A stretch of 64,000 nucleotides of DNA, from positions 55,784 through 119,783 of the IMG/VR virus record IMGVR_UViG_3300044846_005309. One strand, given 5' to 3'. A program made the position numbers and the translations under genes. A model generated the notes under the pieces. The model was not told the origin of the DNA. It ran no database searches and saw only the letters and a list, made by a program, of their open reading frames with translations. Shown here in pieces: positions 23,696-36,184 of this stretch. Origin of the DNA: a virus. The first letter of the stretch is position 1. The number at the start of each line of letters is the position of its first letter.

Positions 23696-23700
23696 TTTCA

Positions 23701-23707: not shown

Positions 23708-23711
23708 CTGC

Positions 23712-24074: not shown

Positions 24075-24076
24075 TA

Positions 24077-24125
24077 ATTTAAGCTTGCTTTTGAGCCAAA
24101 ATAGCTCAAAATGAATAGCTTAAAT
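24077..24125 (+). promoter_or_regulatory. Two-part mRNA hairpin covering the HNH endonuclease start codon
   Basis: The inner stem TTTTGAGC/GCTCAAAA (8 bp, 7-nt loop) and outer stem ATTTAAGC/GCTTAAAT (8 bp) are separated by a small internal loop. The last two pairs use the A and T of the ATG at 24124. No clear ribosome binding site is visible. T4 homing endonuclease genes are kept silent early by hairpins over their translation start, so repression by structure is likely. Confidence 0.6.
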
Positions 24126-24705
24126 GAAAGTTGTACAGCCAGACGCTAAAACTAGTCTTCTTCTCAACCGTAACTACCAAGCTTTTGCTTTTTGTTCGGC
24201 TAGAGCGGCGATCCGTCATTTTATGACTGGTAAAGTAAAAGGGCTAGATGCAGAAAACAATACTCACGAATTTGATACCTGGTCCACTCCTTATGTTCAA
24301 CTTCATGCAGATCAGCCCGCTCTACGTAGTGCAAGTCAAACATGGGCTATACCTACTGTTTTAGTTTGTACCAATCATTTCGGTTTTCACCCTCGCAAAG
24401 GAGACAACGTTTCGCTAAAAAATCTTTTTAATATCTATAAAGGTACTTGCCAGTTTTGTTTAAAGCCGATACCATTCAGTCATGCTACTAAGGACCACCT
24501 TTATCCAAAATCTAAAGGCGGTACTAATCACGATTTTAATATGGTTCTAGCATGCCGTAAATGTAATAGCGAGAAAGATAACATCTTTCCTTACTATGAT
24601 ATTAACGGTAACGAGGTAAAACCACGTAAGTTAATGCATTCCGGTGTGTTCATTCCAGATATCCAAGATGTTAGAGAAGAATGGAAACCTTTCCTTTATA
24701 TGTAA
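24124..24705 (+). CDS. HNH endonuclease
   Basis: A 193-aa protein with a zinc-ribbon-type HNH domain: CQFCLKPI, ATKDHLYPKSKGGTNHDFNMVLACRKCNSEKDN (DH, N, H). These enzymes nick or cut DNA and are commonly free-standing homing endonucleases in T4-like phages. It lies at the junction between the replication block and the tRNA region, a typical insertion site. The start codon is inside a strong hairpin. Confidence 0.9.
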   Translation: MKVVQPDAKTSLLLNRNYQAFAFCSARAAIRHFMTGKVKGLDAENNTHEFDTWSTPYVQLHADQPALRSASQTWAIPTVLVCTNHFGFHPRKGDNVSLKNLFNIYKGTCQFCLKPIPFSHATKDHLYPKSKGGTNHDFNMVLACRKCNSEKDNIFPYYDINGNEVKPRKLMHSGVFIPDIQDVREEWKPFLYM

Positions 24706-24713
24706 AAAAGTGC

Positions 24714-24741
24714 TTGACTTTAAGAGAAAAAGTACCATTAT
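24714..24741 (+). promoter_or_regulatory. Promoter for the RNA region
   Basis: TTGACT, a 16-nt spacer ending GTAC, and CATTAT, just after the HNH stop codon. It is the first of four closely similar promoters between 24.7 and 33.8 kb. Confidence 0.75.
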
Positions 24742-25128
24742 ATGTAAATATTAAATAACAAATGATCAAATCCATAACCAGTTCAACAATTAATCCAGCA
24801 CAATGCGATACATTCGCCTGGGTTCATTATGAACTGGGCAGGGTTTAAAGCAAATTTTCTAACGAAAAACTTTAAACCCTAGGCCTTAAAAACCTAGGGT
24901 TTTTTAATGCGAGCTGCCGCTAACCAAGCAGCCAAGACGTCTTATAAGAGGCATCCAAACCGGCGAATAAAAAGCCGATAGGGGTGAGATCAATAAGTTC
25001 TTTATTAGATGAAATAGAGCGGCCCCGGACGCTCTTTAAAACAATTCGCCGGGCCTTTTTCCTGCCTGCACTGAAGTCTGGGTCCATATCCAGGAAGCAG
25101 CAATGCTCTAGGTGCAGCGTGGGACTAT
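24742..25128 (+). ncRNA. Structured leader/noncoding RNA with competing terminator and antiterminator stems
   Basis: No gene is seen in this stretch between the promoter and the first tRNA. It holds stems CCAGTTCA/TGAACTGG (24778-24837) and AGGGTTTAAAG/CTTTAAACCCT (24840-24880, 11 bp); the latter excludes the terminator AAACCCTAGG/CCTAGGGTTT plus T run (24874-24906). A second set, CCGGCGAAT/ATTCGCCGG (24960/25044), excludes a GGCC(C)CGG/CCGGGCC-T5 hairpin (25021-25060). CTGCAC/GTGCAG closes a last domain before 25128. This is the arrangement of an attenuator or riboswitch followed by a structured RNA; I cannot match it to a known family. Confidence 0.55.
24874..24906 (+). terminator. Intrinsic terminator/attenuator in the RNA-region leader
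   Basis: A 10-bp stem AAACCCTAGG/CCTAGGGTTT with a 9-nt loop is followed by T6. Its 5' arm is also the 3' arm of an 11-bp upstream helix, so the two are mutually exclusive. Confidence 0.75.
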
Positions 25129-25131
25129 TTT

Positions 25132-25206
25132 GCCTCTATAGCACAGTGGTAGTGCAACAGTTTTGTAAACTGTAGGTCGTTGGTTCGAATCCGACTGGAG
25201 GCTCCA
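25132..25206 (+). tRNA. tRNA-Thr (TGT)
   Basis: Full cloverleaf: acceptor GCCTCTA/TGGAGGC, anticodon stem ACAGT/ACTGT with loop TTTGTAA, T-loop TTCGAAT, encoded CCA. Confidence 0.95.
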
Positions 25207-25221
25207 TTTTCAACGACTCGT

Positions 25222-25587
25222 TTATACAGCATTGTATGCTGTGTTGTAATCTCGATTTTTATTTTGAAGCAATCTATATAAAACTTTGTCGTTCCCCGTT
25301 TGTTTTACTTCAGCATCATTTATATACTTATTTACAGTGTTGTAATCTTTATTAAGCCAAGCAATAGTACCTAAATAGTATTTTACTATACCTTGAGAAT
25401 CGTCGGTTTTAGCTTGGGTAGCTGCTTTATTCATCATAGATATAGCTTCTTGCGTTTTACCTTGAATAGCTAATTCTTGAGCAGCATGCCAAGTGTCTAG
25501 TGAAGGAATATTTAGCGGGTTAGTGTTACCCGTATAATTTTCGATTAACGATGAAAGATACAAATTTACCCTTTTATCAAATTTCAT
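25222..25587 (-). CDS. Hypothetical helical (TPR-like) protein, antisense within the tRNA array
   Basis: 121 aa starting MKFDKRVNLYLSSLIENY. Helix pairs such as DTWHAAQELAIQGKTQEAISMMNKAA and GIVKYYLGTIAWLNKDYNTVNKYI look like two to three degenerate tetratricopeptide units. It is the only minus-strand gene inside the tRNA array. The ATG at 25587 is used instead of a TTG at 25593, and a TAAATAT motif precedes it. A protein-interaction role is inferred from the fold only. Confidence 0.65.
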   Translation of the reverse strand: MKFDKRVNLYLSSLIENYTGNTNPLNIPSLDTWHAAQELAIQGKTQEAISMMNKAATQAKTDDSQGIVKYYLGTIAWLNKDYNTVNKYINDAEVKQTGNDKVLYRLLQNKNRDYNTAYNAV

Positions 25588-25601
25588 ATACAATATTTAT
25601 T

Positions 25602-25693
25602 GGAAGCGTGGGTGAGTGGATAAAAATCGCTTGTCTTGAAAACAAGAATCGGTGATGAGCCGGTCGTAGGTTCGAATCCTACCGCTTCCGCCA
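25602..25693 (+). tRNA. tRNA-Ser (TGA)
   Basis: Acceptor GGAAGCG/CGCTTCC, anticodon stem CTTGT/ACAAG with loop CTTGAAA, long type II variable arm, T-loop TTCGAAT, G73, encoded CCA. Confidence 0.95.
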
Positions 25694-25698
25694 ATTTT

Positions 25699-25897
25699 GC
25701 GCGAGGGGTAACCAATAGTCGGTTCTTCAATGGGCCAGTACCCTGAGTGGGCTGAGAAATACCAAGCACAAACAGGAAACCCGTGCCGGACTAGTACGGA
25801 AGTAGGAAGAGATGCATCTCGCTCCCTACAAGTCGGGGTTGGACGAAATTGCTTGGGGCTCTAAGAAGGTAAGGTTGACAGCCTCCCTCGCGCGCCA
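25699..25897 (+). ncRNA. 199-nt structured RNA with tRNA-like ends and a TPP-riboswitch-like core
   Basis: A perfect 9-bp outer helix GCGCGAGGG/CCCTCGCGC is followed by G and CCA, as in the neighbouring tRNAs. Inside lie GGCTGAGAAATACC (25750-25763), identical to the conserved J3-2 region of thiamine-pyrophosphate riboswitches, and CCGGACTAGTACGGAAGTAGG, which resembles the P4/P5 side. The remainder does not match a normal TPP aptamer or a tRNA: there is no D-arm or T-arm. The identity is uncertain; a processed structured RNA is the safest description. Confidence 0.5.
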
Positions 25898-25902
25898 TTT
25901 TT

Positions 25903-25987
25903 GGGAGTATGGCACAGCGGCAACTGCAGGAGACTGTAAATCTCCCGCCTTCGGGCTTCATTGGTTCGAGTCCAATTGCTCCCACCA
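25903..25987 (+). tRNA. tRNA-Tyr (GTA)
   Basis: Acceptor GGGAGTA/TGCTCCC, anticodon stem GGAGA/TCTCC with loop CTGTAAA, type II variable arm with a CCTTCGGG-type hairpin, A73, encoded CCA. Confidence 0.95.
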
Positions 25988-25993
25988 CTTTAA

Positions 25994-26075
25994 GCGGACG
26001 TGTCGTAATGGTAGCCGAGATGGTCTTAGAAGCCATTGCTTATGCGTGTGGGTTCGAGTCCCTCCGTCCGCACCA
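25994..26075 (+). tRNA. tRNA-Leu (TAG)
   Basis: Acceptor GCGGACG/CGTCCGC, anticodon stem ATGGT/GCCAT with loop CTTAGAA, type II variable arm, T-loop TTCGAGT, A73, encoded CCA. Confidence 0.92.
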
Positions 26076-26083
26076 CTTTAAAA

Positions 26084-26090
26084 TAAATAT
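26084..26090 (+). promoter_or_regulatory. TAAATAT late-promoter-like motif
   Basis: TAAATAT lies 4 nt before the lipoprotein ATG at 26095, between tRNA-Leu and that gene. Confidence 0.35.
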
Positions 26091-26094
26091 TATT

Positions 26095-26376
26095 ATGAAA
26101 ACACTAGCATTGCTTATTATTAGTTTGACTATGACCGGCTGCTACGCATCCCCGGTTATTCGTGGCCCTCGAGTAATTGTTGTTGATCCGCATCCTCGGG
26201 TAATTATTGTTGAACCAGCTCCTCGAGTAATTGTAACGAGAGAATACCCTCGTTATCCTAGTGTTTCGTGGCATATTGATGTAAATTTTGGACGGGGTCA
26301 CGGTCATGGCCATGTTTACGGCCCTATTCGTGGTCATTCGAATCCTGGCATTTGGCGTCACTATCGCCATTGGTAA
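26095..26376 (+). CDS. Small secreted lipoprotein with PRVI repeats
   Basis: A 93-aa protein with a type II signal peptide (MKTLALLIISLTMTGC; lipobox LTMTGC with Cys16). Three PRVIVV/PRVIIV/PRVIVT repeats and a His/Gly-rich C-terminus (GRGHGHGHVYG) follow. It should be lipidated and anchored in the host outer or inner membrane. Its place among tRNAs and its own promoter-like motif mark it as a cargo gene, perhaps for exclusion or envelope modification; this is inference. Confidence 0.8.
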   Translation: MKTLALLIISLTMTGCYASPVIRGPRVIVVDPHPRVIIVEPAPRVIVTREYPRYPSVSWHIDVNFGRGHGHGHVYGPIRGHSNPGIWRHYRHW

Positions 26377-26379
26377 TTT

Positions 26380-26467
26380 GGAAGGATGGCTGAGCGGCCT
26401 ATAGCAGAAGTTTACTAAACTTCCGAAGAGCAATCTTCCGGGGGTTCGAATCCCTCTCCTTCCGCCA
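26380..26467 (+). tRNA. tRNA-Ser (ACT)
   Basis: Acceptor GGAAGGA/TCCTTCC, anticodon stem GAAGT/ACTTC with loop TTACTAA, type II variable arm, T-loop TTCGAAT, G73, encoded CCA. The anticodon ACT instead of GCT is unusual in bacteria. Confidence 0.9.
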
Positions 26468-26469
26468 TC

Positions 26470-26546
26470 GCGCCAGTGTCGTTGAAAGGCTAAACTACTG
26501 TTTGCAAAACAGTTACATGCAGGTTCGATTCCTGTCTGGCGCTCCA
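26470..26546 (+). tRNA. tRNA-Cys (GCA)
   Basis: Acceptor GCGCCAG/CTGGCGC, anticodon stem ACTGT/ACAGT with loop TTGCAAA, T-loop TTCGATT, U73 as usual for Cys, encoded CCA. Confidence 0.93.
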
Positions 26547-26551
26547 TTTAT

Positions 26552-26628
26552 GGCGATTGTAGCTCAATGGTCAGAGTATTCGATTGTGATTCGAAGGGTT
26601 GCGAGTTCGAGTCTCGTCAGTCGCCCCA
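26552..26628 (+). tRNA. tRNA-His (GTG)
   Basis: The extra G-1 pairs with C73, followed by acceptor GCGATTG/CAGTCGC, anticodon stem TTCGA/TCGAA with loop TTGTGAT, T-loop TTCGAGT, encoded CCA. Confidence 0.94.
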
Positions 26629-26666
26629 AATATTTGATTTAGAACGTATCTAAACTAAATTTTAAT

Positions 26667-27341
26667 ATGAGTTTAGTTTTTGAAAAAATACTACCTTTAG
26701 TTAATAAAATTACCGAAAAATTTAATTTGGTATCATATGAAATTACAGAAGAAGGTATTAAGGATTACGACTGGTATAATAAAATTTTTTATTCTTTTAA
26801 CAAATTTAGAAGAGCTCATATAGAAGTTCTAGATCGTAGAGAACAAAACAATATGTGGATAATGCATACCACCGTTTTTCCGCATTTAGATGATGATGCG
26901 CCTATATTTGGTTTCGATATAATTTGTACAGGTAATAAGGTGTCTGGAGTGTTTCATGATCTATCTATTACAACTAACCCTAACCATCCATTACAGGTAA
27001 ACTTTAAAAAACTAGTTAGTAATTTAACTTGGAAAAGAGAAAGAGAATTACCCGAATGGGGCAAAGCAATTTTTTCGGAAGATATGATCGCCGCAGGTGG
27101 AAGTAATACTGAACAAGAACTACAGCAAATAGTGGATGTCTGTTTAGAAAGCTTAGATGTTTATTTGAGAAACATAGGAGCTACAAATTTTCCAAGTCCA
27201 ATTTCATCCAAAGAAATGCAGAATAGATATTGCAAGTATCAAAAGATGAATCCATACCCAGTTAAGATGTTAACTAATTTTGGATTGACAGAAGAGCAGG
27301 CTCGTCAGTTTGTTGAAAAACATCTCTTTCCTGAAGTTTAA
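26667..27341 (+). CDS. Ferredoxin-dependent bilin reductase (PcyA/PcyX-like)
   Basis: A 224-aa FDBR. Conserved blocks: RRAHIEVLD (Glu53), WIMHTTVFPHLDDDAPIFGFDII (His67, Asp84), HDLS, RELPEWGKAIFS and a C-terminal RYCKYQKMNPYPVKMLTNFGLTEEQARQFVEKHLF. Glu53, His67 and Asp84 match the catalytic E76, H88 and D105 of PcyA. FDBRs reduce biliverdin to phycobilins using ferredoxin. The class is PcyA-like, but phage PcyX enzymes of this clade make phycoerythrobilin, so the product is open. A heme oxygenase at 33.3 kb would supply biliverdin. Confidence 0.88.
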   Translation: MSLVFEKILPLVNKITEKFNLVSYEITEEGIKDYDWYNKIFYSFNKFRRAHIEVLDRREQNNMWIMHTTVFPHLDDDAPIFGFDIICTGNKVSGVFHDLSITTNPNHPLQVNFKKLVSNLTWKRERELPEWGKAIFSEDMIAAGGSNTEQELQQIVDVCLESLDVYLRNIGATNFPSPISSKEMQNRYCKYQKMNPYPVKMLTNFGLTEEQARQFVEKHLFPEV

Positions 27342-27353
27342 TCCTTTTTTCTG

Positions 27354-27360
27354 TAAATAT
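27354..27360 (+). promoter_or_regulatory. TAAATAT late-promoter-like motif
   Basis: TAAATAT lies 4 nt before the ATG at 27365. Confidence 0.35.
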
Positions 27361-27364
27361 TGCT

Positions 27365-27970
27365 ATGAAATATATAGCAATATTTTTTGCATTATTACTA
27401 ACTAGTTTTGCACAAAATTTAAAAGTATCTACTAAGACTACAAACTACACTCTAACCACTAATGACACTAACACTCTTATTGCATTTATGAGTGTTAATG
27501 CCCCCTTAGTGAGAATGACTGTACCTTCAGAAACGTCTTCAAGAAATACCTTTCCTACCGGGGCTAGAATATACGGTACATCTTTAACAAACTCGATAGT
27601 TCACATAACCGGTTCATCAGGCGTGACAATTATAAGTCCTGAAAACTCATTTCGTAGTAAAAACTATGGTTCAAGATGGGAGCTTATAAAATTATCAAAG
27701 AATATGTGGTTACTTGAAGGAGATTTATATTCCTTAGAAATGAATGCTTTTATTGGAGATGATGTAGTAATAAAAGCAGTTGTTGATGCCGATGCTACAG
27801 GTCCTTTCATTTATAAGTGGTATAAAAATGGAGTACTAATACCGGATGCTACTTTTGCTAGTTTAAAACTTAATAATATAGACCTTTCAACTTCTGGAAA
27901 GTATTATGCCATAGTAAGTAATAGAGCAGGTTCTTACACGGGAGAAACGACTACTTTAATAGTTAGATAA
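27365..27970 (+). CDS. Secreted protein with C-terminal Ig-like domain
   Basis: A 201-aa protein with an N-terminal signal peptide (MKYIAIFFALLLTSFAQ), a beta-rich region and, from about residue 120, an Ig-like domain (VVDADATGPFIYKWYKNGVLIPDATFASLKLNNIDLSTSGKYYAIVSN). The W...G.Y.....N pattern is typical of immunoglobulin-like domains on surface or virion proteins. It may be exported to the host surface or decorate the virion. The next gene has a related domain. Confidence 0.75.
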   Translation: MKYIAIFFALLLTSFAQNLKVSTKTTNYTLTTNDTNTLIAFMSVNAPLVRMTVPSETSSRNTFPTGARIYGTSLTNSIVHITGSSGVTIISPENSFRSKNYGSRWELIKLSKNMWLLEGDLYSLEMNAFIGDDVVIKAVVDADATGPFIYKWYKNGVLIPDATFASLKLNNIDLSTSGKYYAIVSNRAGSYTGETTTLIVR

Positions 27971-27975
27971 CTGCA

Positions 27976-27982
27976 TAAGTAT
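27976..27982 (+). promoter_or_regulatory. TAAGTAT late-promoter-like motif
   Basis: TAAGTAT lies 6 nt before the ATG at 27989. Confidence 0.35.
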
Positions 27983-27988
27983 ATTAGT

Positions 27989-28345
27989 ATGAAAAAACTA
28001 ATATCTGCTATATTCGCAAGTATTGTATTGACCTCTGCAGTAGTAGCGCAAGTCGCGCCCGTACCTAACCCAGATGTCTCAGAGACAGTACTAACAAATA
28101 CAAAAGTTACTTTGACAGCCACTGCTGATGGTACAGCCCCAATTACATATGCTTGGTTCAAGGGTACTACCCAAGTAGCAACAGGCTCTACTCTAGTTTT
28201 TAATAGTATTCAAACTGCCGATGCAGGGGTATACAAGGCTGTAGCTACTAACCCAGGCGGTTCAACTGATAGTAATCTCGCAACGCTTGTTGTTATTACC
28301 CCAGTTGCTCCTTTCAATGTAAAGATTACTATTACTAAGGGTTAA
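27989..28345 (+). CDS. Secreted single Ig-like domain protein
   Basis: 118 aa: a signal peptide (MKKLISAIFASIVLTSAVVAQ) then one Ig-like domain (TLTATADGTAPITYAWFKG, LVFNSIQTADAGVYKAVATNPGGS). The domain is closely related in pattern to that of the preceding gene, suggesting duplication. An exported Ig-like protein could mediate carbohydrate adhesion or block surface receptors; the role is unknown. Confidence 0.78.
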   Translation: MKKLISAIFASIVLTSAVVAQVAPVPNPDVSETVLTNTKVTLTATADGTAPITYAWFKGTTQVATGSTLVFNSIQTADAGVYKAVATNPGGSTDSNLATLVVITPVAPFNVKITITKG

Positions 28346-28352
28346 TTTTTTT

Positions 28353-28427
28353 ACGGACGTGGTATAGTGGTCGTGCAGCAGCCTCCAAACCTGCCCTAAG
28401 AGAGTTCGATTCTCTCCGTCCGTGCCA
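28353..28427 (+). tRNA. tRNA-Trp (CCA)
   Basis: Acceptor ACGGACG/CGTCCGT, anticodon loop CTCCAAA on a stem with one C-C mismatch, T-arm GAGAG TTCGATT CTCTC, G73, encoded CCA. Confidence 0.9.
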
Positions 28428-28431
28428 CTTT

Positions 28432-28752
28432 ATGAGATTTATAGCTATATTTCTCTTTGCTTCAATAGCTTACTGTTCTGATACAATTACGTTTTCGTCG
28501 TATCAGGCCCCTAAGCTATACAATTATAGTTATTCCTATAGTAAGGATAGAGACGATGATAGACACTATAGTAAGGATAGAGACGATGATAGACACTATA
28601 GTTGGGATAGAAAATATAGCTATAAAGATGATAAGTATGAATATGGTCATCCTTCTATTCCTGAGCCTTCTACTTGGACTTTACTTGCTGGCGTGTGCGC
28701 CTTGTCGGCAGCATTTATTAAACGGCGTAAAACGCTTACTAGTAAACCCTAA
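28432..28752 (+). CDS. PEP-CTERM-type secreted protein with tandem charged repeats
   Basis: A 106-aa protein: signal peptide, then a Tyr/Asp/Arg-rich middle with two exact copies of YSKDRDDDRH (30-bp DNA repeat), then the full PEP-CTERM signal PEPSTWTLLAGVCALSAAF followed by IKRRK. PEP-CTERM tails (PEP motif, hydrophobic helix, basic end) are processed by exosortase in bacteria making extracellular polymer. A phage copy implies use of host exosortase sorting. Starts 4 nt after tRNA-Trp. Confidence 0.82.
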   Translation: MRFIAIFLFASIAYCSDTITFSSYQAPKLYNYSYSYSKDRDDDRHYSKDRDDDRHYSWDRKYSYKDDKYEYGHPSIPEPSTWTLLAGVCALSAAFIKRRKTLTSKP

Positions 28753-28981
28753 ATGTTTACTCGCGATAGCAATAACTATACTAGTTACTATAGTAGCGGT
28801 TTTTACAGTTAGCGGTAAGAAAGAGATTGGGGTATTTAACAGAGAAATCAAATGCCCTAATGCCGTTAAGAATGAATATGGTATCTTTTTAGCAAGTGGA
28901 GACTGCAAATGTTCAGAATGCTCGCCTAAAACAACTCCACCCACTCCTTTGAATGCGCCAGTTGTAAGCGATTCAAAATAA
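28643..28981 (+). CDS. Hypothetical membrane protein overlapping the PEP-CTERM gene
   Basis: 112 aa if started at ATG 28643, overlapping the previous gene by 110 nt in another frame. It has two hydrophobic segments (about residues 2-18 and 42-60) and a C-terminal region with KCPNAVKNEYGIF and CKCSEC. About two thirds of it lies beyond the PEP-CTERM stop and the frame stays open to the next tRNA, so it is probably real. The start is uncertain. Confidence 0.5.
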   Translation: MVILLFLSLLLGLYLLACAPCRQHLLNGVKRLLVNPKCLLAIAITILVTIVAVFTVSGKKEIGVFNREIKCPNAVKNEYGIFLASGDCKCSECSPKTTPPTPLNAPVVSDSK

Positions 28982-28984
28982 TCT

Positions 28985-29062
28985 GGGGTGGTAGCTCAAT
29001 TGGTTAGTAGCGACAGCCTGTCACGCTGTAGGCTGCGGGTTCGAGTCCCGTCCATCCCGCCA
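28985..29062 (+). tRNA. tRNA-Asp (GTC)
   Basis: Acceptor GGGGTGG/CCATCCC, anticodon stem ACAGC/GCTGT with loop CTGTCAC, T-loop TTCGAGT, G73, encoded CCA. Confidence 0.95.
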
Positions 29063-29068
29063 TTTTTT

Positions 29069-29143
29069 TGCCCAGTAGCTCAGTGGCAGAGCATGCGACT
29101 GTTAATCGCGTGGTCGTTGGTTCGATCCCAACTTGGGCAGCCA
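29069..29143 (+). tRNA. tRNA-Asn (GTT)
   Basis: Acceptor TGCCCAG/TTGGGCA, anticodon stem GCGA/TCGC with loop CTGTTAA, T-loop TTCGATC, G73, encoded CCA. Confidence 0.93.
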
Positions 29144-29161
29144 TTTTAGTGGAAAATAGTG

Positions 29162-29168
29162 TAAGTAT
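29162..29168 (+). promoter_or_regulatory. TAAGTAT motif upstream of tRNA-Pro
   Basis: TAAGTAT and a further TATTATA stretch stand in the 41-nt gap before tRNA-Pro, suggesting a separate transcript start. Confidence 0.35.
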
Positions 29169-29184
29169 GAGTATATTATAGTCT

Positions 29185-29261
29185 CGGCCGTTAGCACAGC
29201 CTGGTAGTGCGTTCGCCTTGGGCGCGAAAGGTCGCAAGTTCGAGTCTTGCACGGCCGACCA
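29185..29261 (+). tRNA. tRNA-Pro (TGG)
   Basis: Acceptor CGGCCGT/ACGGCCG, anticodon stem TTCGC/GCGAA with loop CTTGGGC, T-arm GCAAG TTCGAGT CTTGC, A73, encoded CCA. Confidence 0.95.
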
Positions 29262-29267
29262 TTTTAT

Positions 29268-29341
29268 TGACTCGTGGTGTAACGGTAGCACAAGAGACTT
29301 TGACTCTCTTTGTTGGGGTTCGAATCCCTACGAGTCAGCCA
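29268..29341 (+). tRNA. tRNA-Gln (TTG)
   Basis: Acceptor TGACTCG/CGAGTCA, anticodon stem AGAGA/TCTCT with loop CTTTGAC, T-loop TTCGAAT, G73, encoded CCA. Confidence 0.94.
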
Positions 29342-29375
29342 TTTGAAAAATAAGTCTTTTTTGGTAAATGTTAGT

Positions 29376-29936
29376 ATGGAGCATTTTCATTATAAAATAC
29401 CCGGCTGGTTTACATTTCCTAAATTGTATTCCACTATGGTTGATAGATCTTTTTCAGGCTCTCATTTTGTAGAGGTTGGTACTTGGCAAGGCTCATCTGC
29501 TGCTTACATGGCTGTAGAAATTATTAACTCCGGTAAAAACATTAAATTTGATTGTATTGACATATGGGGTCGTTATTCAATTGACGGGCTTAATACTAAA
29601 ACCCCTGAGCTTTTACCGGATAATACCGTAGAACAACTTTTCTTAAAAAATATAGAACCAGTTAAACATATAATCAATCCAATAAAAACTCCATCTACTG
29701 AAGGGGCTAAGCTTTATAAAAATGAGTCTTTGGATTTTGTTTTTATTGATGCTAACCATGTTTATGAAGCTGTAAAAGACGATCTACATGCATGGTATAA
29801 TAAAGTTAAACCGGGCGGGTTTATTGCTGGTCATGACTATTATAATGATGCAGGTGTAAAGCGAGCTGTTGATGAATTTTTTAAAGATAAAAATTTGTAC
29901 TTAGGAGAAGGCTGCTGGTTATATTTTAAACAATGA
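29376..29936 (+). CDS. SAM-dependent methyltransferase (Methyltransf_24 type)
   Basis: 186 aa with motif I FVEVGTWQGSSAAYMA, FDCIDIWG, and LDFVFIDANHVYEAVKDDLHAWYNKVKPGGFIAGHDY, the class I fold with a metal-associated FIDANH. This type often acts on sugars or small acceptors in glycan clusters. The ATG at 29376 is chosen because earlier codons of the frame lie in the tRNA-Gln gene. Overlaps the FkbM gene by 4 nt. Confidence 0.82.
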   Translation: MEHFHYKIPGWFTFPKLYSTMVDRSFSGSHFVEVGTWQGSSAAYMAVEIINSGKNIKFDCIDIWGRYSIDGLNTKTPELLPDNTVEQLFLKNIEPVKHIINPIKTPSTEGAKLYKNESLDFVFIDANHVYEAVKDDLHAWYNKVKPGGFIAGHDYYNDAGVKRAVDEFFKDKNLYLGEGCWLYFKQ

Positions 29937-30592
29937 AATACGAGCATTTAAAACAGCAAGACGATTTTGTTTACACTGAAATTTTTGATTGGAATGTTTA
30001 TCAAGCGCTGCCTGATGAAATATATAATCAGAATATTTTAGATATAGGGGGTCATTATGGAATGTTTAGTTTATTCTGCAATGAATATAATCCTAAACAA
30101 ATTATCACAGTTGAAGCCAGCCCTATTAATTTTATTAAATTACTTAACAACACAAAAAATATACGTAATTTAAAAGCGATTAATGCTGCTGTTACAGTTA
30201 AAACTGGAGATTTTATTACTATTAGTAATGATGGATGCCAATCTCAAATTAATAAAGGCAACACTAACGTTAGTACGGTCTCATTAGTTGACGTAGTAAA
30301 CTGGTTTCCTGATAATGAAGATATAGTGCTAAAGATGGATATCGAAGGAGCAGAGTATCCTTTATTTTTTAATAGTCCTTCGTTTATTTTCAGACGTTTC
30401 AATAAAATTTATATTGAATTACATGAAGAAAGTATTGCGGGCCCGGGTAATTCTATTAAAAGACTCGACTCGTTTATACAAAAAGAGTTAAAATTTAAAT
30501 CTGTTTGGGAAGGGCGATTTTTTACTAATACAGATACCGGTAAACAGTCTAATAATGATATAGCTGTATTTAAATACGAACGAGCTTTATAA
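29933..30592 (+). CDS. FkbM family methyltransferase
   Basis: 219 aa: NILDIGGHYGMFSLF (SAM-binding motif I), IITVEASPINF and VLKMDIEGAEYPLFF with the diagnostic MDIEGAE, then IYIELHEE. FkbM enzymes O-methylate sugars and polyketides; among glycosyltransferases a sugar methylase is likely. Coupled to the preceding methyltransferase. Confidence 0.88.
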   Translation: MKYEHLKQQDDFVYTEIFDWNVYQALPDEIYNQNILDIGGHYGMFSLFCNEYNPKQIITVEASPINFIKLLNNTKNIRNLKAINAAVTVKTGDFITISNDGCQSQINKGNTNVSTVSLVDVVNWFPDNEDIVLKMDIEGAEYPLFFNSPSFIFRRFNKIYIELHEESIAGPGNSIKRLDSFIQKELKFKSVWEGRFFTNTDTGKQSNNDIAVFKYERAL

Positions 30593-30595
30593 ATT

Positions 30596-31210
30596 ATGAA
30601 TCCTTTGCTGTCTATTTTAGTTTGTACTATTAATAAACGAGCTTCTTTATTTGAGCGGTTAGATAAAAAAATTAGAAACCAGCTAACAATAGAAACCGAG
30701 TATTTAGTTAATTTAGATGACGGTAAATTGTCAATAGGAAATAAAAGAGAAGAATTAAAATTACAATCGACTGGTAAATATATAGTATATATAGATGATG
30801 ATGATCATATAAGCAAAAATTATGTAAAAAATATACTTTCTGTTATTAAAGGTCATGAGCCAGATGCAATAGGCATAAAATGCATATACACTGTAAATTT
30901 TAAACAAAAATCTTATTTTGTATCGACTAATAATACATCTGAATTAACTACTAAAGGTGTACATTGTAGACCTATAGGGCATTTAAACCCGGTAAAACGA
31001 GAAATAGCTATAAAAGCACCATTTCCAGATCTTTATTATGGAGAAGATAGAAAATATTCTAATGAAATAAAACCTCATATAAAAACAGAAGTTTTAGCGA
31101 AAAACACTCTTTATTGGTATGACTATAGGCCGAATAGTTCAGAGTCTATAAAAAAAGATATTGAAGTAAAAAGTTTAGGGCTAAAGTTAATTGAAAACAA
31201 TATTATATAG
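30596..31210 (+). CDS. GT2-like glycosyltransferase
   Basis: 204 aa beginning LLSILVCTINKRASLFERL, with GNKREELKLQSTGKYIVYIDDDDHIS, i.e. the GT-A nucleotide site and a DDDDH metal motif. It lies 3 nt after FkbM in a three-gene glycan unit bounded by tRNA-Gln and tRNA-Gly. Donor and acceptor are unknown. Confidence 0.82.
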   Translation: MNPLLSILVCTINKRASLFERLDKKIRNQLTIETEYLVNLDDGKLSIGNKREELKLQSTGKYIVYIDDDDHISKNYVKNILSVIKGHEPDAIGIKCIYTVNFKQKSYFVSTNNTSELTTKGVHCRPIGHLNPVKREIAIKAPFPDLYYGEDRKYSNEIKPHIKTEVLAKNTLYWYDYRPNSSESIKKDIEVKSLGLKLIENNII

Positions 31211-31215
31211 TTTAC

Positions 31216-31290
31216 GCGTGAGTAGCTCAATGGTAGAGCACCTCGTTGCCAACGAGGATGTTGCAGGTTCGAGTCCTGTCTCACGCACCA
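31216..31290 (+). tRNA. tRNA-Gly (GCC)
   Basis: Acceptor GCGTGAG/CTCACGC, anticodon stem CCTCG/CGAGG with loop TTGCCAA, T-arm GCAGG TTCGAGT CCTGT, A73, encoded CCA. Confidence 0.95.
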
Positions 31291-31300
31291 TTTTAAAAAT

Positions 31301-31996
31301 ATGCTTTATACAGTAATAATACCTACATACAATAAAATTGATAATTTAAAATATTGTATAGAGAGTATACAACAATATACCTCTTTAAATGATATTGAAA
31401 TTATTGTAATTTCTAACGGGTGTAAAGACGGCACAGTAGAGTACATGCAAAAACTAGAAGGGCCATTTAAAATTGTACATTGGCCTGAGCCGTTAGGGTA
31501 TATTAATAGTGTTAATATAGGGATAAGTCTTAGTAAGGGAAATTATATAGTTTTATTAAATAATGACACCATTCTAAATGGTAAAGGCTGGTTATCATAT
31601 TTAATAGATCCTTTTAATCAAATTTCAACCGCAGGCATTACTGGGCCATATAAAGGATATTGGAATAAGTACCCGTGGTTAATGTTTTTTTGTGTAGCAA
31701 TAAAAAGAGATGTATTTAAAAAAATCGGTTTGTTAGATATTAATTTTCACCCAGGCTACGGAGAAGATGTAGATTTTTGTATACGAGCTGGAAAAGCCGG
31801 GTTCACTATCCATCAAGTACCTGAACAGCGGCTAACACAAGATAAAAATATTAGTACATTAAAACATGGTAAATTTCCTATTTACCATGCAAGTAATACG
31901 ACTTTTAAAGACGATCCTTACTACAGTGATTATTTAACTAACTCTAAAGAACTACTCACTAAAAAGTACGGGTTAAGATGCTCCGAAGTTAGCTAA
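31301..31996 (+). CDS. GT2 glycosyltransferase (paralogue of the gene at 62.5 kb)
   Basis: 231 aa: TVIIPTYNKIDNLKYCIESI, EIIVISNGCKDGTVEYM, IVLLNNDTIL (DxD-like NDT) and HPGYGEDVDFCIRAGKAGF. It is collinear with the protein at 62541-63233 (shared VISNGC, PLGYxxxVN, LLNNDT, GEDxDFCIRA, HQVPE), so the two are paralogues placed 31 kb apart. Confidence 0.88.
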   Translation: MLYTVIIPTYNKIDNLKYCIESIQQYTSLNDIEIIVISNGCKDGTVEYMQKLEGPFKIVHWPEPLGYINSVNIGISLSKGNYIVLLNNDTILNGKGWLSYLIDPFNQISTAGITGPYKGYWNKYPWLMFFCVAIKRDVFKKIGLLDINFHPGYGEDVDFCIRAGKAGFTIHQVPEQRLTQDKNISTLKHGKFPIYHASNTTFKDDPYYSDYLTNSKELLTKKYGLRCSEVS

Positions 31997-32031
31997 TTTA
32001 CCTATTAAAGCACTATTATTTAAAATAAAGC

Positions 32032-32059
32032 TTGAGGTTTAAGATTAAAGTACTACTAT
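32032..32059 (+). promoter_or_regulatory. Promoter upstream of the second tRNA block
   Basis: TTGAGG, a 16-nt spacer ending GTAC and TACTAT, followed by TTGTTCTTTT downstream as in two related promoters. Confidence 0.6.
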
Positions 32060-32093
32060 ATGTCTTGTTCTTTTGATACTTAAACAATTTTTT

Positions 32094-32187
32094 GGTCCCA
32101 TAGTGTAACTGGAAGCACCGACAGCCTTATAAACTGTGCGCACCTGATTAGTGCCGAGCGGGGGTTCGATTCCCTCTGGGACTACCA
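32094..32187 (+). tRNA. Type II tRNA with anticodon TAT (atypical; Leu-like body)
   Basis: 94 nt: acceptor GGTCCCA/TGGGACT (G1-U72 wobble), 3-bp D-stem GTG/CAC, loop CTTATAA (or a 9-nt CCTTATAAA) on an ACAG/CTGT stem, a long variable arm and T-loop TTCGATT, A73, encoded CCA. By position the anticodon is UAU (AUA, Ile), yet the long variable arm belongs to Leu/Ser/Tyr tRNAs. It may be a tRNA-Leu(UAA) derivative with an altered third anticodon base. Confidence 0.75.
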
Positions 32188-32191
32188 TTTT

Positions 32192-32267
32192 GCGGTAGTA
32201 GCTCAATTGGTAGAGCGCCATCCTTCCAAGCTGGATGTTGCAGGTTCGAGCCCTGTCTACCGCACCA
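32192..32267 (+). tRNA. tRNA-Gly (TCC)
   Basis: Acceptor GCGGTAG/CTACCGC, anticodon loop CTTCCAA on CCATC/GCTGG (one mismatch), T-loop TTCGAGC, A73, encoded CCA. Confidence 0.9.
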
Positions 32268-32268
32268 T

Positions 32269-32343
32269 GCTCCCGTCGTTCAACGGATAGGACAACCGCC
32301 TTCTAAGCAGTTTATGGGGGTTCGATTCCCTCCGGGAGTGCCA
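32269..32343 (+). tRNA. tRNA-Arg (TCT)
   Basis: Acceptor GCTCCCG/CGGGAGT, anticodon loop CTTCTAA on ACCGC/GCAGT (one mismatch), T-loop TTCGATT, G73, encoded CCA. Confidence 0.92.
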
Positions 32344-32351
32344 TTTTTATC

Positions 32352-32379
32352 TTGACTTTTGGTACAAAAGTACCATTAT
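32352..32379 (+). promoter_or_regulatory. Promoter with palindromic spacer upstream of tRNA-Ala, tRNA-Lys and tmRNA
   Basis: TTGACT, a 16-nt spacer and CATTAT. The palindrome TGGTAC-AAAA-GTACCA (32360-32375) fills the spacer and could bind a repressor. TTGTTCTTTT follows. Confidence 0.75.
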
Positions 32380-32400
32380 ATATTTTGTTCTTTTATTGAC

Positions 32401-32476
32401 GGGCCTGTAGCACAATTGGCGGTGCGCCTCCTTTGCAAGGAGAGGGTTAGGGGTTCAAATCCCCTCTGGTCCACCA
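32401..32476 (+). tRNA. tRNA-Ala (TGC)
   Basis: The acceptor carries the Ala identity pair G3-U70 (GGGCCTG/CTGGTCC, one mismatch). Anticodon loop TTTGCAA, T-loop TTCAAAT, A73, encoded CCA. Confidence 0.93.
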
Positions 32477-32479
32477 TTT

Positions 32480-32553
32480 TCGTACGAAAAAGCCACCAGT
32501 CTAATTAACTGTCCTACCAGCCGTGGCAATTCTCTATGGTAGGGAAGAGACCA
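32480..32553 (+). ncRNA. Small structured RNA or degenerate tRNA between tRNA-Ala and tRNA-Lys
   Basis: TTTTCGTACGAAAA is a perfect palindrome, followed by overlapping stems GCCAC/GTGGC, CCTACCA/TGGTAGG and GTCT/AGAC and an apparent CCA end. No anticodon or T-arm is recognisable. It may be a tRNA relic or a small hairpin RNA. Confidence 0.4.
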
Positions 32554-32558
32554 TTTTC

Positions 32559-32634
32559 GCCTCTATAGCTCAACGGTTAGAGCTGCTGCCTTTTAAGCAG
32601 TAGGTTCAGAGTTCAAATCTCTGTGGAGGCACCA
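32559..32634 (+). tRNA. tRNA-Lys (TTT)
   Basis: Acceptor GCCTCTA/TGGAGGC, anticodon stem GCTGC/GCAGT with loop CTTTTAA, T-arm CAGAG TTCAAAT CTCTG, A73, encoded CCA. The acceptor stem is identical to that of tRNA-Thr at 25132. Confidence 0.94.
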
Positions 32635-32655
32635 ATTTTCGTTCTTTAATATTTT

Positions 32656-33059
32656 GGGCGTGTTCTGGATTCTACTTAATAGTGGACTTATTAGAAGCAA
32701 GCAAGGTTGTTAGACCTTATAAAACTAGCAAAAAACATAAATGGCATTGTAAATAGCCTTAAGGGTGCTTTTGCTGCTCCGGTTGCTGCTCTCGCAGCAT
32801 TCTTCAGCACAGAAGAACTCCAATTCGCAGCCTAAGAATTGCGATCGTTATAGTATAGATTCTCGCTATATATTATAACGTTGACTAGCGAGGATGTTGT
32901 TTGAGGTACTTGGAATAAATAAAACAACATTAAAGCTGTTCCTAAAGTACTATACATTGCGTATTAACAGTGTTAAGTACTTATATATTAATACTAAGCT
33001 TGTAGAAACTAGTCGGAAAAGTATTAGGCACGCGGGTTCGACTCCCGCCACGTCCACCA
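32656..33059 (+). ncRNA. ssrA: tmRNA (ssrA), one-piece, with an unusually long tag
   Basis: The 404-nt molecule has the tRNA-like ends: 5' GGGCGTGTTCTGGATTCTAC and 3' GCGGGTTCGACTCCCGC with CACGTCC, A73 and CCA. The 7-bp acceptor GGGCGTG/CACGTCC closes it. The resume codon is GCA at 32728 (context CTAGCAAA, as in other tmRNAs). The reading frame runs 35 codons to TAA at 32833-32835, starting AKNINGIV and ending QFAA. tmRNA with SmpB rescues stalled ribosomes and tags products for proteolysis. A phage copy could maintain rescue late in infection. Confidence 0.93.
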
Positions 33060-33069
33060 ATTTGTATAT

Positions 33070-33147
33070 AGGGTCATAGCTTAATTGGTTCAAAGCATCC
33101 GATTGATAATCGGAAGAGTCCTGGTTCAATTCCTGGTGGCCCTACCA
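33070..33147 (+). tRNA. tRNA-Ile (GAT)
   Basis: Acceptor AGGGTCA/TGGCCCT, anticodon stem TCCGA/TCGGA with loop TTGATAA, T-loop TTCAATT, A73, encoded CCA. Confidence 0.94.
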
Positions 33148-33148
33148 T

Positions 33149-33224
33149 AGGAGGGTGGATCGATAGGTAAGACAGGAGTTTCATAAGCTCTTTCATATGG
33201 GTTCAAATCCCATCCCTCCTACCA
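33149..33224 (+). tRNA. tRNA-Met (CAT), elongator or Ile2
   Basis: Acceptor AGGAGGG/CCCTCCT, anticodon stem GGAGT/GCTCT with loop TTCATAA, T-arm ATGGG TTCAAAT CCCAT, A73, encoded CCA. Whether C34 is lysidinylated to read AUA (Ile) cannot be told from the gene. Confidence 0.9.
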
Positions 33225-33263
33225 ATTTAATTGCATTTTATTTAGTAACTATTAAGTTTAATT

Positions 33264-33791
33264 ATGAGTCTCAAAGAATTAACTAAAGCAAAGCATGAGA
33301 CAGCTGAAAAGCTGCCTTTTATAAATAAAATTTTTCAGAAAAAAGTTACCCCAGAAGAGTACCTTAAATATCTTTATCAGATGCAGCCGGTTTACGAAGC
33401 TTTAGAAAATAAAGCTAAAGCTTTAGGTATTCTTAATGATCTTAAGGGTTTAGAGCGCGCATCTCGAATACAAGAAGATATTAACGAGCTACAAGAAACT
33501 ACCTCTCTTAAGTACTATATGCATTTTCCTGTGACAGATGAATATTTAAATTATTTAAAACAAATGTCAGACCCTAAAAAAGTCCTGGCTCATTTATATG
33601 TTAGACATATGGGAGATCTTTATGGTGGTCAAATGCTTAGACTGTGTGTACCTGGTTCAGCCAAGTGGTACTGGTTTGATAACGCCCCAGAACTTATCTC
33701 TAAGTTGAGAGGCTTAATTACAGTAGATCTTGCAGATGAAGCTAATGTAGCCTTTGATTATTCAATTAAAATAATTGAACAATTGTCTTGA
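33264..33791 (+). CDS. Heme oxygenase
   Basis: A 175-aa all-helical heme oxygenase. The proximal heme ligand is His11 in KAKHETAEKLPF, and the distal helix is LYVRHMGDLYGGQML (residues 111-125). It opens heme to biliverdin, CO and iron with electrons from ferredoxin. It is somewhat shorter than cyanobacterial HO1 (about 240 aa), as are phage enzymes. With the bilin reductase at 26667 it forms a heme-to-bilin pathway. The stop codon overlaps the -35 of a downstream promoter. Confidence 0.92.
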   Translation: MSLKELTKAKHETAEKLPFINKIFQKKVTPEEYLKYLYQMQPVYEALENKAKALGILNDLKGLERASRIQEDINELQETTSLKYYMHFPVTDEYLNYLKQMSDPKKVLAHLYVRHMGDLYGGQMLRLCVPGSAKWYWFDNAPELISKLRGLITVDLADEANVAFDYSIKIIEQLS

Positions 33792-33815
33792 CTTTAAAGG
33801 GCCGGGTACCATAAT
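33788..33815 (+). promoter_or_regulatory. Promoter upstream of tRNA-Val
   Basis: TTGACT overlaps the heme oxygenase stop codon; the 16-nt spacer ends GTAC and CATAAT follows, then TTTGTTCTTTT. Same design as the promoters at 24714 and 32352. Confidence 0.75.
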
Positions 33816-33837
33816 AGTCTTTGTTCTTTTAAATAAC

Positions 33838-33914
33838 GCTCGCTTAGCTCAGTTGGTTAGAGCAGGATCTTTACATGGTCAAGGTCGTGGGTTCAAGTCC
33901 TACAGCGAGCACCA
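33838..33914 (+). tRNA. tRNA-Val (TAC)
   Basis: Acceptor GCTCGCT/AGCGAGC, anticodon loop TTTACAT on a GGATC/GGTCA stem (one mismatch), T-arm GTGGG TTCAAGT CCTAC, A73, encoded CCA. Confidence 0.93.
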
Positions 33915-33920
33915 TTTTCG

Positions 33921-34160
33921 AAACTCGACTAGGCGAGTATAAATAGAATTTAAGCCTAGTGCGGCTGCTGATACCGTCGACGCTACCAGCAGCATATCGT
34001 CTCGCGTCAGTGACAGTGCACAGTCATAAAGTGTTCCTAGTATAGCCGCTTTCATGGATATATTATACATGCTGATCATAGAAAGAGTGACAAAAACATA
34101 TATGTATTTGCGAAGTATATGTACAAATCACCGCCTATAGCAATAGGGCTAGCGAGACAC
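33921..34160 (+). ncRNA. Structured noncoding RNA with a likely pseudoknot
   Basis: No gene lies between tRNA-Val and the next tRNA. A hairpin ACTCG-(ACTAGG)-CGAGT has loop bases that pair with GCCTAGT at 33954-33960, an H-type pseudoknot. Next come GCTGCTG/CAGCAGC (33964/33987), a long helix GTCTCGC/GCGAGAC (33999/34152), ACATATA/TATATGT (34096/34116) and CCTAT-AGCA-ATAGG. The compact set of perfect helices argues for a functional RNA, but I cannot name the family. Confidence 0.55.
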
Positions 34161-34169
34161 CCCTTTTCT

Positions 34170-34245
34170 TGCAGAGTGGAGCAGTAGTAGCTCGACTGGC
34201 TCATAACCAGTAGGTCGACGTGTGCAATTCCGTCCTCTGCATCCA
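34170..34245 (+). tRNA. Initiator-like tRNA-fMet (CAT), degenerate T-arm
   Basis: GTGGAGCAG...TAGCTCG, GGCTCATAACC and AGGTCG match bacterial initiator tRNA almost base for base. The 5' base pairs normally with A72 (T1-A72) instead of the initiator mismatch, the T-loop reads TGTGCAATTC instead of TTCAA and the T-stem is weak. U73, encoded CCA. It may be a decaying or repurposed initiator. Confidence 0.7.
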
Positions 34246-34251
34246 ATTTAT

Positions 34252-34326
34252 GCCGCTATCTTCTAACGGTTAGGAAGGCGCCCTTTCACGGCGATAATCG
34301 GGGTTCGATTCCCCGTAGCGGTACCA
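34252..34326 (+). tRNA. tRNA-Glu (TTC)
   Basis: Acceptor GCCGCTA/TAGCGGT, anticodon arm CGCC-CTTTCAC-GGCG, T-arm CGGGG TTCGATT CCCCG, A73, encoded CCA. Last tRNA of the array. Confidence 0.93.
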
Positions 34327-34346
34327 ATTTCTAATAAACTTATTGA

Positions 34347-35162
34347 TCAAACCGGGTTAACTGGAAGTTCTGGGTTATCATATGATAACGGTTTCCATTC
34401 AGGGTAAACAAATATGTCCCCATGCCATGCAAAAGTATTGCGCCGGTCATTATAATATACGTTTGTAGCGTTACTTAATACTCCTACCCACCAACAATAC
34501 GTACCTTCACTTAGTACTAAATTGTTAAAATTTTTTCCAAAATTAAGGGTTTCAACAGGAACGTCTGACGTATAAAGTTTAAGCTTATATTTTTCTAAAA
34601 GAAATTGTACGTCAGGGTGTTGCAGGCTATCTGAAGTAATGTACCCGCCGTGACAACCACTTTGATAAAGCCTCTCTATAGCATCTACGTAGTACTGCAA
34701 AGGTAAACGCTGCCTTCTTTTAGCTACGTCCCCTAGACGAAAAATAACAAATATTTCATTATCGGGTCTTGGGATATAAGTTAAATTAAACATATCTTTT
34801 ATTTGATTTTTATACGGTAAAACAAAATCTTTTAATTGAAAATAATCTTGAAAATGATATTGAGCGTCCGTTACATAGGCTCTATTCAACAATTCAACAA
34901 AATTTAAATCATGTATAGGGATATAAGGTAATTCAAATTTACGCGTAGTTTCTAGAGGGCTAGATTTTACAGATGACCATGCTTCGTTGAACCCGGTAGT
35001 TATTGGCTGCGGCTTATCCGGACTTAAAGGAAAGTGAGGCAACAAAGGATCTACGTTAAAATATAAATTATGTTTTTTAGCAAATACGTAAGCAGCGGTA
35101 TACATTAACAAACAATTGCCTAAACGATTTCCCCATCCATATTCTATCGTTACCATATCCAT
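34347..35162 (-). CDS. GT11-like (fucosyltransferase-type) glycosyltransferase, divergent
   Basis: 271 aa starting with EYGWGNRLGNCLLMYTAAYVFAKK, a GGxGNxxxxYA-like GT11 opening. VIFRLGDVAKRR replaces the HxRRxD motif, and EGTYCWWVGVLS resembles the SSFSWW block. It is related in layout to the GT11 gene at 1963 but more distant. ATG at 35162 or 35156 are both possible. Transcribed opposite to the outer-membrane protein gene. Confidence 0.6.
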   Translation of the reverse strand: MDMVTIEYGWGNRLGNCLLMYTAAYVFAKKHNLYFNVDPLLPHFPLSPDKPQPITTGFNEAWSSVKSSPLETTRKFELPYIPIHDLNFVELLNRAYVTDAQYHFQDYFQLKDFVLPYKNQIKDMFNLTYIPRPDNEIFVIFRLGDVAKRRQRLPLQYYVDAIERLYQSGCHGGYITSDSLQHPDVQFLLEKYKLKLYTSDVPVETLNFGKNFNNLVLSEGTYCWWVGVLSNATNVYYNDRRNTFAWHGDIFVYPEWKPLSYDNPELPVNPV

Positions 35163-35212
35163 ATTGATACTGGTAAGTTGATAATTCCATAAAGTATTAT
35201 AAATTTAATTGT

Positions 35213-35935
35213 ATGAAGAAACTAATCGCATTCATTACCTTGGCTGTATTTGCCAGTGTAGGTTTTGCTGCTCCTGCGCCTAGCGTAGTTAGCGGCGGAA
35301 TCGACCTCGGCTTTAAATCCAAGCTCATTGAACAGGGTAAAGTAACCGGCACCAATTATATTGTTGCTGGTGCAAACGTTGAAGTAGCAAGCTTTGGGCT
35401 TGGCGTTACAACTTATAACGCTTATGAGGGTTCAACCGCAACTGGTATCAGTTCCGGACTCTTTAAGCGTGTAGATGTAGCAGCAACCTATAAGTTTACT
35501 TCTACTCTTGCTGACTTGCACCTTGGTGCTACCTATAGAAATGCTAGTAAGAACGCTAGTCTTGCTAATGTGCGCGACAACGTACTTCCGTCTGTCAAGC
35601 TCAGTGGTAAAGTGTTCGGGACATTTCCTTGGGACGTAACACTGCTCAATGACACTAAGAATCGTAGCAACAACTACGAAGGCAATATCAAGCTACCGCT
35701 TGGTACTAAGGCCTTTAAGGTTGTACCTGCTGTTGGAGTAGGTTTTAACGATCCGGGCACTGCCACTATTGCAGCGCTTAGAAGCGTTAAGAAGTACTAC
35801 AATGGTGGTCTCGGTGTAGCGTATGTTATTGCCGGTGGTACCTTTAGCGTGAATGGATATGTCCAGCGCGTTAATCTTACCGATAATTACGGACAGGTAA
35901 CTGGCTACGACGCAGGCTATAGCTTTAGATTCTAA
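35213..35935 (+). CDS. Outer-membrane beta-barrel protein
   Basis: 240 aa with a signal peptide (MKKLIAFITLAVFASVGFAA), alternating amphipathic strands and a C-terminal Phe (AGYSFRF), the usual BamA recognition end. It recalls the TorF/gcw_chp family of putative porins. GC and codon choice look more regular than in neighbours. Phage-encoded barrels can replace or mask the host receptor (superinfection exclusion); this is an inference. A strong terminator follows. Confidence 0.8.
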   Translation: MKKLIAFITLAVFASVGFAAPAPSVVSGGIDLGFKSKLIEQGKVTGTNYIVAGANVEVASFGLGVTTYNAYEGSTATGISSGLFKRVDVAATYKFTSTLADLHLGATYRNASKNASLANVRDNVLPSVKLSGKVFGTFPWDVTLLNDTKNRSNNYEGNIKLPLGTKAFKVVPAVGVGFNDPGTATIAALRSVKKYYNGGLGVAYVIAGGTFSVNGYVQRVNLTDNYGQVTGYDAGYSFRF

Positions 35936-35959
35936 AAGCTATTTTAGTGTAGTAATTGA

Positions 35960-35986
35960 CCCCTCGCGAAAGTGAGGGGTTTTTTA
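35960..35986 (+). terminator. Intrinsic terminator after the outer-membrane protein gene
   Basis: CCCCTCGC-GAAA-GTGAGGGG (8 bp, GNRA tetraloop) followed by seven Ts. Confidence 0.92.
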
Positions 35987-36184
35987 TTCTTCGATATGAA
36001 ACTGTAAAGCTCTATTAAGTTTTTGAGCAAACTTCTTTTTATCTATTCCCGCTTTTTCCTGTTTTCTGATCTCTTCTTTTAAAGCTTTTATAAAAGTTTC
36101 TGAAAGATTAAAATTTCTAGGATAGAACAGGCGTTGTTCTTTTTTTAACATACCATATTGCTCCATTAACTCTTGAAATTTCAT
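35984..36184 (-). CDS. Small basic helical protein
   Basis: 66 aa starting MKFQELMEQYGMLKKEQRLFYPRNFNLSETF, Lys/Glu-rich and helical. Its stop lies in the T tract of the terminator. A TAAGTAT motif (complement of 36199-36205) lies 15 nt upstream of the start. Possible DNA-binding protein; no HTH is obvious. Confidence 0.6.
   Translation of the reverse strand: MKFQELMEQYGMLKKEQRLFYPRNFNLSETFIKALKEEIRKQEKAGIDKKKFAQKLNRALQFHIEE

Follow-up and report, generated by a model that had tools for sequence, protein, structure and literature searches.

A heme oxygenase and a PcyA/PcyX-type bilin reductase encoded apart in a tRNA-rich island of a T4-like freshwater phage

Here, we describe a phage that encodes both a heme oxygenase (HO) and a ferredoxin-dependent bilin reductase (FDBR), with the two genes lying apart in a variable, tRNA-rich region of its genome. 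The genes were found in a 64,000-nucleotide stretch of DNA (the window), which is the right-hand part (positions 55,784 to 119,783) of the 119,783-base IMG/VR virus record IMGVR_UViG_3300044846_005309. We propose, with a probability of about 0.6, that the phage brings its own route from heme to a phycobilin, that both genes are exchangeable cargo and that the benefit is something other than light harvesting. This proposal is based on gene identity, conserved residues, predicted fold, the side of the phylogenetic tree on which the reductase falls, gene layout and the variability of the island, from which we infer activity, product, electron donor, benefit and host.

The two genes and their separation

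The FDBR gene (26667..27341, plus strand) is an intact open reading frame (ORF) of 224 amino acids and matches Pfam Fe_bilin_red (PF05996) with an E value of 1e-19 and 71.6 bits, the curated cut-off being 31. Its nearest PDB entry by sequence is PcyX 5owg (E 3e-37), and the AlphaFold model (pLDDT 93.9) was matched by Foldseek to PcyA (top match, E 1.7e-12) and to PcyX structures. An earlier reading of this DNA, made from the letters and translations alone (the sequence-only reading), had pointed to E53, H67 and D84 as PcyA residues. Indeed, they share alignment columns with PcyA E76, H88 and D105, so that the PcyA residue set is complete, and H67 and D84 are invariant across the phage FDBR relatives. 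Column 53 holds a Glu and not the catalytic Asp specific to PcyX (Asp55). Sequence and structural model confirm the protein as a member of the FDBR family and a predicted enzyme.

The HO gene (33264..33791, plus strand), also intact, codes for a short protein of 175 amino acids of the HO-1/HmuO type, which matches Pfam Heme_oxygenase (PF01126) with an E value of 1.9e-19. Its AlphaFold model (pLDDT 95.6) is all-helical, with Foldseek matches to HmuO and HO-1, as well as PDB matches by sequence, and the protein has a distal helix with the motif GDLYGGQ. The proximal His, H11, which the sequence-only reading had described as kept, is invariant in 26 of 26 aligned HOs, as are G121 and G122 of the GDLYGGQ motif. 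Compared with its closest relative seen, the HO of the sister phage L212, dN is 0.38 and dS 1.27 (NG86), and since dN/dS is thus well below 1, the gene is under purifying selection as judged from this sequence comparison. In the HO tree the protein is a long branch without a settled place, which neither supports nor excludes that it travelled jointly with the FDBR. The presence of both enzymes, as first read from the sequence, is thereby borne out.

The genes are separated by 5,922 bases, with FDBR first and HO second, which is the reverse of the usual order. The sequence-only reading had noted that they are not adjacent, and the gap does contain the tRNAs, glycosyltransferases and secreted-type ORFs that it listed: 13 tRNAs, a transfer-messenger RNA (tmRNA), Ig-domain ORFs, a PEP-CTERM ORF, two methyltransferases and two GT2-type glycosyltransferases. 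One might argue that the genes are non-functional remnants or that their separation is an assembly artefact, as a single assembled contig shows the position of the HO. However, both ORFs are intact with every invariant residue kept, the FDBR region recurs with 99.96% identity in a second contig (L002/L095), the HO flanks align to the sister phage L126 on both sides and the dN/dS of the HO speaks for constraint. We therefore regard this explanation as scarcely credible.

To place this layout, relatives were gathered by scanning viral contigs with the HO, the FDBR or the phage polymerase as query. About 70 fetched records hold both HO and FDBR, and nearly all of these have HO immediately ahead of FDBR, with gene ends that overlap or touch. 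The exceptions are L005, L041, L042 and L052, in which 0.2-1.5 kb lie between the genes, L005 being a truncated contig end. The reversed order with a 5.9-kb gap was seen in none of these relatives. The window accordingly lacks the two-gene hemO-pcyA/X cassette, in which HO directly precedes FDBR, and it also lacks the three-gene hemO-pcyA/X-alaS cassette, as ALA synthase (TIGR01821) was not matched anywhere in the possibly incomplete record. psbA was found in 0 of 32 related records, which indicates that phages with the HO-FDBR pair are mostly not cyanophages. The pair had been described in the sequence-only reading as known from marine cyanophages and PcyX-bearing phages; it does occur there, but it is not mainly a cyanophage trait, as phages lacking psbA, both freshwater and marine, are already known to carry it widely. 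New is a diverged member with its genes apart, in a shuffled layout within a variable, tRNA-rich cargo region.

Phylogenetic position and predicted product of the reductase

The FDBR tree comprises 65 FDBRs and was computed with column 53 excluded; alphaproteobacterial PcyA and pre-PcyA enzymes are not part of it, and a scan for cellular relatives gave three contigs of metagenome-assembled genomes (MAGs) only. The window FDBR falls into the phage/PcyX clade together with PcyX 5owg and the enzyme of Pelagibacter phage Mosig EXVC030M (support 96/93). A joint clade with cyanobacterial and cyanophage PcyA was rejected (approximately unbiased (AU) test, p 0.022), whereas grouping with the Asp-type PcyX rows alone was not (AU p 0.22). 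The earlier description of the enzyme as PcyA-like thus holds for its Glu/His/Asp residues but not for its place in the tree, which is on the PcyX side.

At column 53 the phage enzymes have Asp (the PcyX type), Glu (the window FDBR and 28 other distinct sequences), Ser or Cys; the variants with neither Glu nor Asp are Ser in L029 and L064 and Cys in L011. Phage PcyX and PcyA enzymes from phages without psbA have been characterised biochemically, and the PcyA/X of the freshwater phage CB_2, which lacks the PcyX Asp55, was found to be a true PcyA that makes phycocyanobilin (PCB), which assembles a functional phytochrome; the CB_2 HemO is active (PMC11480375). CB_2, compared here through its published description, was not recognised among our loci. 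As the PcyA residue set is complete, the PcyX Asp is absent and the Asp-less CB_2 enzyme makes PCB, the product of the window FDBR is most likely PCB, a prediction drawn from residues and analogy.

Alternatively, the reductase could be a functional PcyX that converts biliverdin to phycoerythrobilin, with Glu53 being compatible with this activity. The loop between positions 53 and 67 has the PcyX length, the top PDB match by sequence is a PcyX and the AU test did not reject a grouping with Asp-type PcyX enzymes. On the other hand, the window FDBR lacks the PcyX-specific Asp and the published phage enzyme that also lacks it yields PCB, so that we consider a PcyX-type product unlikely.

The pair most resembles vHemO and vPcyA/X of CB_2 (PMC11480375) in that both stem from freshwater phages with a probable non-phototrophic host and combine an HO with an FDBR without the PcyX Asp. 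In CB_2, however, hemO and pcyA/X are neighbours and alaS is close by, whereas the window genes are 5.9 kb apart and reversed, with no ALA synthase in the record. PcyX (5owg; phage Mosig) shares with the window FDBR the side of the tree, the loop length and an HO partner, but has Asp at position 53 in place of Glu, and the HO and FDBR genes of Mosig overlap. The Glu/His/Asp set and the fold are shared with cyanobacterial and cyanophage PcyA, which differ in their shorter Glu-His loop and separate clade. Cyanophage PebS is likewise a phage-borne protein with the FDBR fold, but has an Asn in place of the His67 of PcyA and PcyX and an Asp at position 53. The Asp/Glu/Ser/Cys series at one active-site position makes the switch from PcyA to PcyX product directly testable.

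Probable exchangeable cargo in sister phages

The record carries the markers of a T4-like myophage (tail sheath, gp43-type DNA polymerase, UvsX, DnaB-like helicase and gp32-like single-stranded DNA-binding protein), and the phage belongs to a T4-like freshwater lineage. Viral contigs contain many relatives of its DNA polymerase (75-100% identity), and window positions 1-25000 had no DNA-level match in isolated phages. No terminase was detected in the record, which is therefore probably incomplete; the negative results for the record given below are to be read with this in mind.

The island is flanked by conserved anchors near 23 kb and 35 kb, and what lies between them is hypervariable among sister phages. 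When the island was compared with L126 by blastn, the flanks 33062-33228 and 33809-33918 aligned and the interior did not, as L126 has unrelated ORFs there. L212 encodes an HO (1234-1776, minus strand) that is 54.6% identical to the window HO and lies in the matching region, but its record of 63.5 kb gave no match for an FDBR. In another sister, of 122.7 kb, both HO and FDBR are absent. From the different slot content of L126, the HO of L212 without an FDBR match and the sister with neither gene, it follows that HO and FDBR act as separate cargo in this phage lineage. We propose that the two genes are exchangeable cargo of this tRNA-rich, hypervariable island, and that their separation and reversed order came about in this way. 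The layout shows that HO and FDBR can be uncoupled and moved separately.

The HO of L212 adjoins two tryptophan-halogenase-like flavoproteins and overlaps one Trp_halogenase-like gene, and a glycosyltransferase-like ORF lies directly downstream of it; a Trp halogenase was not found in the record of the window phage.

Possible purpose and host

The enzyme families imply conversion of heme to biliverdin, iron and CO, followed by reduction with four electrons from host ferredoxin, which yields a phycobilin, and the purpose of bilin formation in such phages has been called an open question (PMC11480375). In the pathway that we propose, the phage HO would cleave the heme of the host, giving biliverdin IXalpha along with Fe2+ and CO. 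The FDBR would then accept four electrons from host ferredoxin, the product most likely being PCB by PcyA-type chemistry. The benefit to the phage may lie in heme turnover and iron release or in a bilin chromophore for a host photoreceptor, and the sequence-only reading had likewise named heme degradation with iron release and a host phytochrome. As the host is probably a non-phototroph, these two are more likely than light harvesting, which is an unlikely benefit. The HO that L212 carries by itself speaks for heme or iron turnover, whereas the conservation of the FDBR active site and the phytochrome assembly described for CB_2 (PMC11480375) speak for chromophore supply.

The sequence-only reading had suggested the phycobilisome as one destination of the bilin, and had seen no photosynthesis genes in the window. 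The latter extends to the whole record, in which neither psbA-type nor phycobiliprotein genes were found. Searches of the record for phytochrome (PHY) and 2Fe-2S ferredoxin (Fer2), which that reading had suggested along with psbA, gave none either, and no bilin-binding partner was found. HO and PcyA do occur in cyanophages, and a cyanobacterial host whose phycobilisomes receive the bilin would fit with this. However, besides the missing psbA and phycobiliprotein genes and the lack of psbA in the 32 relatives, the FDBR lies outside the cyanobacterial PcyA clade, and the secreted proteins with a PEP-CTERM signal or Ig domains are a hint of a different Gram-negative host. We reject a cyanophage origin as very improbable, and with it the phycobilisome as a likely destination.

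A second possibility, compatible with the proposed chemistry, is that heme demolition is the purpose: HO would remove heme and free iron and CO, and the FDBR would dispose of biliverdin or be dispensable. This would fit with the L212 HO, with the HO of L070, which has no FDBR within the fetched stretch, and with the missing bilin-binding partner. Against this, every invariant family residue is kept in the FDBR, the overlapping gene pair in nearly all relatives speaks for a joint product, and the HO of L212 is so close to the end of a contig that an FDBR may follow beyond it. We view heme demolition as a real possibility, though one with less than even odds.

Several points weigh against a phycobilin route with a benefit outside light harvesting. 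The window FDBR is a long branch in the tree and its grouping with Asp-type PcyX is not rejected, so that a single residue and a single published analogue carry the prediction of the product. Pre-PcyA enzymes with other products are known. That the host is a non-phototroph is only probable, and a Verrucomicrobia-like one is a tentative candidate suggested by the PEP-CTERM and Ig-domain proteins. Lastly, partner genes may be missing from view in an incomplete record. With these reservations, the pair is a diverged addition to those phages of probable non-phototrophs that make bilins, a group as yet poorly understood.

HSP20 and ClpS in other HO-FDBR loci

A neighbour screen of the HO-FDBR pairs showed that an HSP20-ClpS-HO-FDBR cassette recurs in about 20 distinct loci (L011, L041, L042, L049, L051, L053-L057, L062, L064, L071-L078, L080-L082). 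Its spacing is nearly constant, with HSP20 lying some 800 bases and ClpS some 310 bases upstream of HO, and its reductases include Asp, Glu, Ser and Cys types at column 53. The phage ClpS proteins retain an NDDxTPMEFV-like motif. In L041 and L042, filed as Neomarinimicrobiota and Rickettsiales MAGs and possibly phage contigs binned into these, the FDBR lies 1-1.5 kb beyond HSP20-ClpS-HO. ClpS was not found in the record of the window phage, and the only HSP20 is a distant one elsewhere in the record (L038 18051-18473). Neither protein is mentioned in the main text of PMC11480375.

Plant ClpS has been discussed in papers on glutamyl-tRNA reductase. For this reason a link between the ClpS cassette and heme synthesis is conceivable, and one might speculate that HO-FDBR in phages of non-phototrophs is a module for tetrapyrrole control and not a pigment pathway. 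Heme would be dismantled, with the bilin as sink or signal, while ClpS and HSP20 would steer host proteolysis, the N-degron adaptor ClpS perhaps targeting heme-synthesis enzymes such as glutamyl-tRNA reductase. HO could act alone in such a module, as in L212, and the window phage would have a stripped, dispersed version. We consider this joint reading doubtful.

Further content of the island

Across the island (window 23000-36000; sisters L212-L218 and L126), tRNA genes punctuate exchangeable genes, among them 2OG-Fe(II) oxygenases, Trp halogenase-like flavoproteins and methyltransferases. The window features that follow in this paragraph are all on the plus strand. A tRNA block (25132..26628; Thr, Ser, Tyr, Leu, Ser, Cys, His; ARAGORN and Rfam) lies upstream of the FDBR. 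Between FDBR and HO follow two secreted-type ORFs with Ig-like domains (27365..28345; Pfam Ig_2) and a short secreted-type ORF (28432..28752) with a signal-like N-terminus and a PEP-CTERM sorting signal (NCBIfam TIGR02595, 19.8 bits, cut-off 16), a combination that is a possible hint at the type of host. Next come a glycan/methyltransferase block with TylF/Methyltransf_24, FkbM and two GT2-type genes and a tRNA-Gly (29310..31996; Pfam, ARAGORN), and a second tRNA block (32094..33224; Ile, Gly, Arg, Cys, Lys, Ile, Met; ARAGORN and Rfam). The cargo slot between tRNA-Ile/Met and tRNA-Val (33229..33808), delimited by the blastn comparison with L126, holds the HO.

The second tRNA block includes the tmRNA (32656-33059; ARAGORN, and Rfam RF00023 with 103.5 bits), which is also kept in the sisters L212, L214-L216 and L218. 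By our own reading, its tag is predicted to be long, about 28-30 residues, ending in LQFAA here and in ALAA-like sequences in the sisters. A match to the Pistol ribozyme (Rfam RF02679) lies amid the tRNA genes at 33923-33974 and is kept in L126 (1638-1697).

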